DNA from: Clostridium sp. CAG:253
GTDB lineage: Bacteria > Bacillota > Clostridia > Lachnospirales > Lachnospiraceae
DNA: 42,263 bases
Reading direction: 5' to 3'
Assembly (NCBI GenBank): GCA_000436755.1
Contig: FR887314.1
Span: 106,640-148,902 of the forward strand
Part shown: positions 16,095 to 42,071 of the stretch, piece after piece
Numbering within the stretch: position 1 is the first letter of the stretch
How the letters are laid out: each line of letters opens with the position of its first letter
The notes under the pieces: model-generated
Database searches by the model: none
What the model was told of the DNA's origin: nothing
What the model saw: only the letters and a program-made list of their open reading frames with translations
Program-made: the position numbers and the translations under genes

Positions 16095-18044
16095 TTACTG
16101 TATCGTTTCCCATCTTTCCATAAGTTCTTCAAGTCTGTCTGTATTTTGTTCTATTTTAGAAGAAATCTCCTGTAATTTAACAGAGTTAGTTGACACTTCA
16201 TCTGTCTGTAAAAGTTCTGTGAGTTCTTCATTTTCTGTTTCAAGTTTTTCAATTTCAGCTTCAATTTTCTTGACTTCATTTTCGATTTTTCTAAGACGAG
16301 CCTGTTCTTCCTTCTGCTGTTTCCAACTGAGTTTTGTATCGGAAGAAGTATTATCTGAGCTGTCTGTATCAGAAATCATAGTGGAACTGTTTCCGGAGGT
16401 TTGATTTAAAGTCAGGTCATTAAGCTGCGCACGCTCGTTGTCCTCTTTTTTTTCAAGGTAGTAATCGTAGTTACCGACATAGTTTACTATCTGATGTCTG
16501 GTAAGGTCAAGTATTCTTGTCGCTGTTTTGTTTATAAAAAATCTGTCATGAGATACATAGAGGACAGTTCCCTCAAAATTATTTATTGCATTTTCAAGGA
16601 TTTCCTTTGAGTCTATATCAAGGTGGTTTGTCGGCTCATCAAGGATGAGGAAGTTTGCATCTGACAACATAAGTTTTGCAAGAGATACACGACCTCTTTC
16701 GCCACCGCTCAGATTTTTAATTTTCTTAAAGACATCATCCTCCGTAAACAAAAATGCGGCAAGCATATTTCTTATCTGCGTATTTGTCATTGTAGGATAT
16801 GTATCCTGAATTTCTTCAAACAATGTTTTTTCCATGTGGAGTACCTGGTGTTCCTGGTCATAGTACGCAATCTGAACATTGGTGCCTAGTGTTATGCTGC
16901 CTGTGTCAGGGGCAAGCATTTTGTTTATCATTTTCAGGATAGTGGTTTTGCCTGTACCATTGTCACCGATTATGGCTACTTTTTCACCTCGTTTTACCTC
17001 AAATGCAATGTCTGAAAAGAGTGAGTGTTCACCGAAACTCTTTGATAAATTTTTTATTGTAAGTACATCATTTCCGCTTTGTATCTTCGGTGTAAAAAGG
17101 AGGTGCATCTGAGTGTTTTCTTCAACAGGTTTTTCGATACGCTCCATCTTATCGAGCATTTTTTGACGGCTTTCTGCACGTTTTATGGATTTTTCTCTGT
17201 TGAAAGAGCGAAGCTTTGTAATAACTTCCTCTTGATGTTTTATCTCAGCCTGTTGGTTCATGTACTGTTTCATAAGGCTGTCGAGAAGTGCCTGGCGTTT
17301 TGTTGAATAATCGCTGTAATTACCCGAAAAGACTGTTGAATGTGTCTGTCTTAATTCAACAACCTTAGTGACTATTTTATCAAGAAAATATCTGTCATGA
17401 GCAACTATTAAAACGGCACCCTTATAGCTGTTTAGATAGCCTTCAAGCCAGTGGATTGAATTCATGTCAAGGTGGTTTGTCGGCTCATCGAGTATTATTA
17501 AATCGGGAGCCTGTAAAAGCATTTTAGCAAGTGCAACTCTGGTTTTCTGACCACCTGAAAGTTTGGAGATAGGTTTGCTAAAATCATTATCTTCAAAACC
17601 AAGACCTTTTAAGACACCGTTTATCTCGCTTTCATATGAATAACCGTCAAGCTGTTCAAAGCGGTGTCTGGCATTATCATATTGCTTGATAAGAGAATCA
17701 AGTTCATCACCTGATGCATTATTCATTTTTTCTGAAAGTTCATGCATTTTTTTTTCTAAGATCTTTACCTCAGGCTTAGCGGTCTGCATTTCTTCTATAA
17801 TACTCTCACCCGATTCAAATTCCTGATTCTGTGCAAGATATCCGACAGAAGCGTCTTTTTTTATAATAATATCACCGGAATCGTAACCTTCTTTTCCTAC
17901 TATAATTTTTAATAAGGTAGATTTACCGGAACCGTTTACACCTACGATGGCGGCTTTTTCGTTGTCATTTATATGAAATGATACATCATTTAAAACTACA
18001 TCTGTTGCAAATGATTTGCTGATGTGGCTGCATTGTAATATCAT
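16095..18044 (-). CDS. ABC-F family ATPase (translation factor type)
   Basis: A 649-residue soluble protein with two ABC domains in tandem and no membrane segments. Domain 1 has GVNGSGKST (35-43), LSGGQKTRVALA and ILDEPTNHLD; domain 2 has GDNGTGKTT, LSGGERGRVSLA and FLILDEPTNHLD. A charged helical linker (about 235-320) joins them, which in ABC-F proteins reaches the ribosomal peptidyl-transferase region. A Ser/Thr-rich spacer (about 535-565) and a C-terminal coiled coil (570-649) resemble the Uup/YdiF subgroup. These proteins act on stalled or antibiotic-bound ribosomes; nothing here marks it as a resistance factor. GGAGG lies five bases before the ATG, and a good promoter lies at 18082-18110. 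Confidence 0.93.
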   Translation of the reverse strand: MILQCSHISKSFATDVVLNDVSFHINDNEKAAIVGVNGSGKSTLLKIIVGKEGYDSGDIIIKKDASVGYLAQNQEFESGESIIEEMQTAKPEVKILEKKMHELSEKMNNASGDELDSLIKQYDNARHRFEQLDGYSYESEINGVLKGLGFEDNDFSKPISKLSGGQKTRVALAKMLLQAPDLIILDEPTNHLDMNSIHWLEGYLNSYKGAVLIVAHDRYFLDKIVTKVVELRQTHSTVFSGNYSDYSTKRQALLDSLMKQYMNQQAEIKHQEEVITKLRSFNREKSIKRAESRQKMLDKMERIEKPVEENTQMHLLFTPKIQSGNDVLTIKNLSKSFGEHSLFSDIAFEVKRGEKVAIIGDNGTGKTTILKMINKMLAPDTGSITLGTNVQIAYYDQEHQVLHMEKTLFEEIQDTYPTMTNTQIRNMLAAFLFTEDDVFKKIKNLSGGERGRVSLAKLMLSDANFLILDEPTNHLDIDSKEILENAINNFEGTVLYVSHDRFFINKTATRILDLTRHQIVNYVGNYDYYLEKKEDNERAQLNDLTLNQTSGNSSTMISDTDSSDNTSSDTKLSWKQQKEEQARLRKIENEVKKIEAEIEKLETENEELTELLQTDEVSTNSVKLQEISSKIEQNTDRLEELMERWETIQ

Positions 18045-18196: not shown

Positions 18197-18562
18197 TTAA
18201 TTATTATGAAGACTGTTTTTCATCGCTTCAAAGCTTTCTTTACTTATTACATGCTCAATGCGGCATGCATCTTCAAGAGCAATTTCCTCAGGAACACCAA
18301 GAGATATAAGCCATTTGGAAATAAATTCGTGTCTCTCATATATCATTTCTGCTATTTCACGACCTGAATCGGTAAGATATATGTAACCGGCATCAGTGAC
18401 TGTGATGTGTTTCTTTTCACGAAGATTTTTCATGGCAACACTGACACTGGATTTTTTAAAGCCAAGATGATTTGCTATATCTACACCCCTGACAACAGGG
18501 AGGGTTTTGCTGAGCATAAGTATAGTTTCAAGATAATTTTCAGAAGATTCATTACTGTTCAT
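18197..18562 (-). CDS. DtxR/MntR-family metal-dependent repressor, short form
   Basis: A 121-residue regulator. Residues 8-65 form a winged helix (ENYLETILMLSK, then VVRGVDIANHLGFKKSSVSVAMKNLREK with the recognition helix). Residues 70-121 form the metal-binding dimerisation domain (LTDSGREIAEMIYERHEFISKWL, then DACRIEHVIS). The C-terminal SH3/FeoA-like domain of DtxR is absent, as in MntR and many clostridial homologues. GAGGTGAG precedes the ATG. It is divergent from a FeoB-associated peptide, which suggests that iron (or manganese) controls the shared 220-base region. Candidate operator sequences overlap both promoters. Confidence 0.92.
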   Translation of the reverse strand: MNSNESSENYLETILMLSKTLPVVRGVDIANHLGFKKSSVSVAMKNLREKKHITVTDAGYIYLTDSGREIAEMIYERHEFISKWLISLGVPEEIALEDACRIEHVISKESFEAMKNSLHNN

Positions 18563-18785: not shown

Positions 18786-18926
18786 ATGATAGCAACTGTT
18801 ATTATAAGTATTATTATTGTGATTGCATTGGCGGCAGCACTTAGAAGTGTTATAAAAGGAAAGAAGAATGGATGCACAGGAAATTGTGCGAGCTGTTCAG
18901 GATGTGCGGTGCATCACAAAAAGTAA
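18786..18926 (+). CDS. FeoB-associated Cys-rich membrane peptide
   Basis: A 46-residue protein: an N-terminal membrane helix (residues 3-20, Ile/Val/Ala-rich), a basic turn (VIKGKK), then CTGNCASCSGCAVHHKK with four cysteines and two histidines. This is the layout of the FeoB-associated Cys-rich family, found with the ferrous iron transporter FeoB in Firmicutes. AGGAAGGGG precedes the ATG. No feoA or feoB lies in the window, so here it is next only to a DtxR-family regulator and is probably iron-regulated from the promoter at 18651. Metal binding by the Cys cluster is plausible but unproven. Confidence 0.88.
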   Translation: MIATVIISIIIVIALAAALRSVIKGKKNGCTGNCASCSGCAVHHKK

Positions 18927-18977: not shown

Positions 18978-19872
18978 ATGAAGATAAGTGAAATATTGAA
19001 AAACAATAAAATTACATTGTCTATGGAGGGTTTTCCGCCAAAGACTGGAGGTTTTTCCGCCAAAGACGAGTACAGCGTTTGAAACGGTAAATAAGGCTGT
19101 TAAAGAGATTGCGGCATTGAAGCCTGATTTTATGAGCGTTACATATGGTGCCGGCGGTGGTACGAGTAAACACACGGTTAAGATAGCGACAGACATAAAA
19201 AAACAGTACGGAGTGACTTCCATGGCGCACCTTACCTGTGTTTCATCGAGTGAGGATACAGTTAGGAAACAAATTGAGCTTATAAGAGATGCCGGCATTG
19301 AAAATATACTTGCCTTAAGGGGAGATATTCCGGAAGAAACAGAGTTCCCTATGCCGGGGCAGTTTAAACATGCGTCTGACCTTGTATATCAGATTAAAAA
19401 TATAGCACCGGATATCTGCATAGGAGGCGCATGTTATCCGGAAGGACATCCGGAGGCTGATGACAAGACTGCGGATATAGCCAATATAAAGAAAAAAGTT
19501 GATGCTGGATGCGAGTTTTTGACAACTCAGATGTTTTTTGATAATTCGATTTTTTATAATTATCTGTACAGATTAAGGGAGGCGGGTATATTTGTACCTG
19601 TAATTGCGGGAATTATGCCTATTACGAAGAAGGCACAGCTTGCAAGGAGCATACAGCTTTCAGGTTGTTGTGTACCGGCTAAATTTAAGTCGATAGTTGA
19701 CTGGTTTGGTGATGAATCTCAAAAGATGCAGCAGGCAGGAATTGCTTATGCTACGGAACAGATTATCGATTTGTTTGCAAACGGTATTAAAAATGTGCAT
19801 GTATACACGATGAATAATCCTGAGGTAGCACTTGGTATACAAAACAATCTGTCTGAAATAATCGGAAAATAA
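18978..19872 (+). pseudogene. metF: metF, 5,10-methylenetetrahydrofolate reductase, frame broken by tandem duplication
   Basis: MetF reduces methylene-THF to methyl-THF for methionine synthesis. Translation from ATG 18978 (after GAGGAA) gives the expected N-terminus, KITLSMEGFPPKT, then runs out of frame to a stop at 19080 (34 residues). The remaining barrel (SVTYGAGGGTSKHT, HLTCVSSSEDT, LALRGDIPEE, FLTTQMFFDN, the last giving the usual QxFFD) is open in the +1 frame to 19872. The cause is a direct 22-bp duplication at 19024-19067; deleting one copy gives a normal 290-residue MetF. Copy 2 encodes MEVFPPKT, nearer the family consensus than copy 1 (MEGFPPKT). The downstream part is otherwise undamaged, so the event is recent, reversible, or a sequence error. 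The 251-residue frame from 19117 lacks the catalytic Glu of the N-terminus. Confidence 0.88.
19024..19067 (+). repeat. 22-bp direct tandem duplication inside metF
   Basis: Copy 1 is 19024-19045 and copy 2 is 19046-19067, abutting. They differ at one base: GGAGGGTTTT in copy 1, GGAGGTTTTT in copy 2. Being 22 bp long, the duplication shifts the frame by +1. Confidence 0.97.
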
Positions 19873-39128: not shown

Positions 39129-39720
39129 ATGGTTCTTAAATTGAAAAAAATCAGAAAAATGACTGTATTGCTGCTTGTAATCTGCCTGTTGGTATCAGGT
39201 TGTTCAAAAGCAGAAGAAGAAAACACAAATGATATAGATTCTGTGAAACTGAAATCAAATCAGGAAATAGTAACCTGCAAGATAACGGCAATATATGGAA
39301 ATGAGATAGAGTATACTGTTGCTAAAGAGCAAAGTGTATCAGACACGAAAAAAGATAAAATGCCATCATCAAGCGGGGCACCTGACATGAATAATGGAAA
39401 TAATGATAATTCTGCCGGGGGACCGCCCGATATGGGCGGGGACAGCAAAAATTCATCGTCAGGTAATTCAGACAAAAATAAATCGGATAAAAGTAAATCT
39501 TCTAAGAACAGTGACAAAAAGGTTTACACATTGACAGATGAGACAGGAATTGACAGATGAGACAGGAAGTACAACGATACCGGTTGGAACGGATGTGATA
39601 ACATCACTCGGAAAAACGACAACGTTTTCAAGATTATCAAACGGGGATATTATCAAGATGATAATGGAGAAGGACTCAAGCGGAGAAAAAGTCGTAGTAG
39701 GAGTGTGGATAGTTTCATAA
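39129..39720 (+). pseudogene. Small lipoprotein of the efflux operon, frame broken by 19-bp tandem duplication
   Basis: The N-terminus has a basic region, a hydrophobic core and the lipobox LVSGC, giving a lipid-anchored product with Cys near residue 25. A Ser/Gly/Asn/Pro/Lys-rich spacer (about 75-130, with GGPPDMGGD) follows, then KVYTLTDETG. A direct 19-bp duplication at 39531-39568 repeats TDETG and shifts the frame; the first frame ends at 39560 (143 residues). The +1 frame continues STTIPVGTDV, then LSNGDIIKMIMEKDSSGE and VVGVWIVS to 39720. With one copy the product is a 190-residue lipoprotein with a C-terminal beta-rich domain. A good ATPase start follows 14 bases later, so polar effects are possible. 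The function is unknown. Confidence 0.85.
39531..39568 (+). repeat. 19-bp perfect direct tandem duplication in the lipoprotein gene
   Basis: TTGACAGATGAGACAGGAA at 39531-39549 is repeated without change at 39550-39568. The length is 19 (one more than a multiple of three), so the frame shifts by +1. Confidence 0.97.
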
Positions 39721-42004: not shown

Positions 42005-42033
42005 TTGACAAAATAAAACAATATGTATATATT
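42005..42033 (+). promoter_or_regulatory. Promoter of the PadR-family gene
   Basis: TTGACA (42005-42010), a 17-base spacer and TATATT (42028-42033). The -10 lies inside the long palindrome at 42021-42071. Confidence 0.65.
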
Positions 42034-42071
42034 TTATATATAATATTTTTATATATAAAATATATACATAT
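42021..42071. promoter_or_regulatory. 51-bp AT-rich perfect palindrome, candidate PadR operator
   Basis: Arms of 23 bp (42021-42043 and 42049-42071) are fully complementary around a five-base loop. The outer ends read ATATGTATATA and TATATACATAT, resembling the ATGT...ACAT sites known for PadR regulators. It covers the -10 and the probable transcription start, as expected for autorepression. Confidence 0.6.

Follow-up and report, generated by a model that had tools for sequence, protein, structure and literature searches.

Is the metF gene of Clostridium sp. CAG:253 lost, reversibly switched, or broken only in the assembled sequence? The question arises from a tandem pair of 22-bp units near the start of the gene, within the window (the whole stretch of 42,263 nucleotides that was analysed; Table 1). 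Tandem Repeats Finder, run on the window, reports at 19024-19067 a repeat with a period of 22, 2.0 copies, and 95% matches. Direct comparison shows that the copies differ at one base only, the seventh of the unit (G in the first copy, T in the second), and comparison of the flanks shows that homology extends past neither side of the pair; the coordinates, the copy number, and the mismatch given in the original prediction are thus all correct. The i.i.d. chance of such a repeat at this period and this composition is ~1.4e-6 per window. The pair shifts metF by +1, with the copy junction at 19045/19046, within codon 23, and the frame from ATG 18978 reads MKISEILKNNKITLSMEGFPPKTGGFSAKDEYSV and then meets a stop. 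It was proposed that the shift comes directly after the active-site Glu motif; the +1 shift is confirmed and its position refined, as the codon of the conserved Glu (19026-19028) is part of the duplicated unit and the frame changes six codons after it. With one 22-bp unit fewer, metF encodes 290 residues, in agreement, by simple arithmetic, with the length expected earlier. The claim that the rest of the gene is undamaged also holds: the post-junction frame is open as far as 19872 and, queried as printed, including 15 out-of-frame residues at its start, passes the curated cut-off of the methylenetetrahydrofolate reductase model TIGR00676 (305.9 vs. 293.7 bits, residues 16-284). As printed, metF is broken and its remainder intact.

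Table 1. Features of the window and two-copy repeats of the control sequences (control positions are those within each locus).
Feature	Position	Strand	Remarks
ABC-F protein	16095-18044	opposite	upstream of metF
MntR/DtxR-type regulator	18197-18562	opposite	upstream of metF
FeoB-associated Cys-rich small membrane protein	18786-18923		upstream of metF; PF12669
metF, 5′ part	18978..19082	+	own frame, 34 codons, then out-of-frame TGA 19080-19082
Copy 1 of 22-bp unit	19024..19045	+	encodes MEGFPPKT
Copy 2 of 22-bp unit	19046..19067	+	equals relatives' EVFPPKT
Remainder of metF, MTHFR family	19045..19872	+	275 codons from CTG 19045 to natural stop
Chemotaxis receptor, Na/Pi symporter, SbcD- and SbcC-like proteins, DNA polymerase I, CoaE			downstream of metF
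Predicted lipoprotein gene, as broken	39129-39560
Second frame-breaking tandem duplication	39530..39568	+	19 bp x 2, perfect, 1 bp junction homology
Control repeat	L066 2776		period 17; just past stop of 686-codon frame
Control repeats	L011 2936, L102 8206, L115 19850		outside any frame of at least 80 codons
Control repeats	L065 2904, L076 548		overlap long stop-to-stop frames in their first part; for L076 548 an antisense frame too
Control repeat	L065 4486		period 14; overlaps end of 219-codon frame, another frame next; break there possible
Control repeat	L111 4698		period 13, near-repeat; in 1791-codon frame, stays open

Which of the copies is original can be judged from related proteins. 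In the MetF search 7999 candidates were scored and the best 120 of 7995 relatives were compared; among these, 63 entries are 91-99% identical to the query, the closest at 99%. The duplicated place is covered by 62 of the 63 entries with at least 91% identity (P0002-P0063), whose contig counts sum to 849. The original prediction suggested looking for the same duplication in sister genomes, and all 62 of these entries proved to be single-copy, with the duplicated (off) state in none, in a protein set clustered at 90%, within whose clusters broken copies could hide. The strict motif is matched by 60 of the 62, the other two differing by substitutions only. Val follows the Glu in every one of them, as in copy 2, and the Val-to-Gly change of copy 1 occurs in 0/62; therefore copy 2, together with what follows it, corresponds to the sequence of the relatives, whereas copy 1 deviates and holds the sole base that sets it apart from them in coding effect. 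P0002, one of the single-copy relatives, matches PF02219 and solved MetF structures (1v93 and 1b5t among others), and the EVFPP/EFFPP motif is conserved in its alignments to these structures; the Glu of this motif we take to be the catalytic Glu of MetF. A search for truncated products among the best 120 of 7995 returned three entries shorter than 280 residues (P0063, P0081, and P0115), of which P0063 and P0081 carry the duplicated place once. P0115 (216 aa, 97% identical) starts with MAHLTC, residue 75 of the full protein and downstream of the place. It could be a broken copy, a contig-edge copy, or the product of another N-terminal lesion, and its sequence is not that of the window's strain.

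Close relatives could be compared through protein entries but not through DNA, since the DNA searches gave no near match. For same-species metF DNA in genome contigs the best among the matches listed reached 76%. In 28 genomes from the genus to which G024, a relative, belongs, the best metF match reached 79%; a metF pattern of 39 bases, with 3 mismatches allowed, was found in none of the 397 family genomes that were sampled. In the same 28 genomes a MetF copy at 72-79% is present in 14, only one at 40-45% in seven, only weak matches in four, and none in three. By these matches MetF is patchy across the genus, where some genomes may be incomplete.

The window contains a second gene broken in the same manner. 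A perfect 19-bp pair at 39530-39568, the counterpart of the one in metF, sits in a predicted lipoprotein gene that adjoins MacB/HlyD-like transporter genes. In the best 120 of 497 lipoprotein relatives, which were compared, the place of the 19-bp unit is single-copy without exception (120/120); the motif at this place is matched by 95, while the other 25 have Asp instead of Gly, and the C-terminus is normal in 119, one stopping early. Because the relatives read single-copy, intact copies of both metF and the lipoprotein gene exist in related strains. Two genes broken alike suggest that the cause acts along the contig and is not particular to metF. The lengths of the same lipoprotein relatives (P0122-P0241, the best 120 of 497) fall mostly in 14-residue steps (190, 204, 218, 232, and 246 aa), which in seven sequences correspond to copies of a KGGDMPSSSGAPDM-like unit, i.e., an in-frame 42-bp repeat of variable copy number.

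How rare gene-breaking duplications are was estimated with a detector of two-copy repeats (period 13-60, at most 1 mismatch, low-complexity units filtered out) applied to two control sets: 580,059 bases of relatives' loci around metF (L001-L100) and 400,000 bases in 20 stretches drawn from five genomes in the genus of G024 (L101-L120). One locus, L081, repeats part of L001 and a few others overlap, leaving 964,216 of 980,059 bases as the non-redundant control. The control yielded 16 repeats, whose effect on genes was read from the open frames rather than from homology; in eight of the 16 the period is not divisible by three (Table 1). Of the 16, six fall in L001-L100; five of these six have such periods (13-17) and are placed either outside long frames or at their margins. 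Among the ten in L101-L120, five lie in frames of at least 139 codons and have periods that are multiples of three; the sixth in a frame is that at L111 4698. No gene-breaking duplication with a period of at least 17 bp was seen in the 964,216 non-redundant control bases. The window itself holds a third repeat, an AT-rich 15-bp unit at 42032-42061, which breaks no frame. If two events are spread evenly over window and control, the probability by length share that both fall in the 42-kb window is ~0.0018, a value to be read as a guide rather than a test, the assembly methods of the control sequences not being given.

Beyond the two pairs, the ORF list of the window, taken by itself, shows no other obviously broken gene. 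The consensus thus seems otherwise clean, and this counts against a seam. A Pfam scan of 28 window ORFs, the broken lipoprotein among them, matched 25 to a family at an E-value of 1e-5 or better, and neither feoA nor feoB is among the 28. The PF12669 gene just upstream of metF is divergent from the MntR/DtxR-type regulator. No riboswitch or other RNA control was found in the window, with 0 Rfam matches at the gathering score.

The structure of the junctions bears on how the pairs arose. When a duplication is made by slippage or through microhomology, the array is longer than two units, the excess being equal to the homology, and template slippage usually leaves more junction homology than 0-1 bp, although genuine short duplications lacking microhomology may arise as well. 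Here the excess over two units, and with it the short homology flanking the duplicated unit, is 0 bp at metF and 1 bp at 39530-39568, which is the outcome expected of a blind join. A distance of 20,503 bp (41 x 500 + 3) separates the two junctions. So close an approach to a multiple of 500 has a chance of ~0.014, a post hoc figure that comes from two points only; in window coordinates the metF junction itself falls 45 bp beyond such a multiple. In the accessible part of its description, metaMDBG polishing, akin to racon, splits contigs into non-overlapping windows of 500 nt and builds a consensus for each (PMC11392814). If the ends of neighbouring consensus pieces shared ~20 bases and were joined without removal of the overlap, a tandem duplication would result; with 500-nt polishing windows, the tail of one and the head of the next overlapping by ~20 bases would give the observed picture, and the odd base in copy 1 could be due to poor support for the tail of the left piece. 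A scaffolder that joined overlapping contig ends would leave the same picture, except for the spacing. An assembly or polishing seam should have companions of its kind elsewhere in the contig, and one is present in the pair at 39530-39568, which we infer to be itself an assembly seam. It is therefore proposed, with a probability of about 0.6 and from the printed letters of the contig, that the metF duplication is most likely a seam from its assembly or consensus polishing. The organism's real metF would then be an ordinary single-copy gene encoding 290 residues, and the duplication, true of the printed sequence, is probably not true of the organism. Among the papers listed by the literature searches, none was seen to describe exactly this seam error. 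From the three readings offered by the original prediction (knock-out, switch, or error), the one named last fits best.

The knock-out reading assumes a real and recent loss-of-function tandem duplication in one strain, in which replication copied 22 bp twice and turned metF off; it ranks second in likelihood, at well below even odds. The allele would be transient as the surroundings supply methionine, and precise loss of one copy could restore the gene. The otherwise undamaged metF is what a young lesion would leave, loss of the gene may be tolerable because MetF is patchy in the genus of G024 (28 genomes, some maybe incomplete), and a pneumococcal precedent, in which a capsule gene is switched off by a tandem duplication, is given in the available part of PMC4022640. 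However, two rare events in 42 kb and, in addition, a point change in copy 1 are required, the duplicated allele is shared by none of the 62 close MetF entries that cover the place, and microhomology of at most 1 bp at both junctions argues against a real duplication. Far less credible is a selected, reversible on/off switch operating by slippage between the copies. Tandem 22-bp copies can in principle recombine to one, but a phase-variable locus should present both states among close relatives and several identical units, and what is found are 62 of 62 single-copy relatives and 2.0 copies with one mismatch, unlike any multi-copy contingency repeat. Moreover, metF is a housekeeping enzyme gene, and the type of lesion is not specific to it, the second gene being broken likewise; together with the lack of junction microhomology, these observations leave the switch unsupported.

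A different possibility is that the gene as printed still yields some enzyme, from a CTG start at 19045 that would replace the natural internal ATG codon of MEVFPPK and give 275 residues, with 15 missing. The frame is open from this CTG, GGAGG lies upstream at 19025-19029, and P0081 (275 aa) is listed as starting at the matching residue. The spacing of 15 nt between GGAGG and CTG is nevertheless long for a ribosome site, and the product would lack the first part of the barrel; efficient use of this start is unlikely, and we consider it very improbable that such a product explains the locus. The slightest probability is assigned to a strain that makes short microhomology-free tandem duplications unusually often, with many genes, metF included, toggled by gain or loss of ~20 bp. 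If real and strain-wide, such a process would give Clostridia a new means of inactivating genes reversibly. If the pairs are artefacts of assembly or polishing, they call for caution, as tandem duplications of ~20 bp, when seen in one assembled contig, can mimic pseudogenes or switches.

Waite et al. reportedly described, in 2001 and 2003, spontaneous tandem duplications in pneumococcal capsule genes, observed in cultured populations and with an off phenotype. As far as the accessible part of that literature goes, the metF pair is alike in that a short head-to-tail duplication breaks an open reading frame and could be lost again; it differs in being known from one contig, in residing in a metabolic gene, and in having a second gene broken alike. 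When compared with MetF proteins (TIGR00676, PF02219), the gene is whole apart from the insertion, but its frame is broken within codon 23. The likeness to racon-like window seams or contig-end joins, drawn from the sequence alone, comprises the blind junction, the doubling of a ~20-bp overlap, the occurrence of more than one such junction in the window, and a spacing near a multiple of 500.
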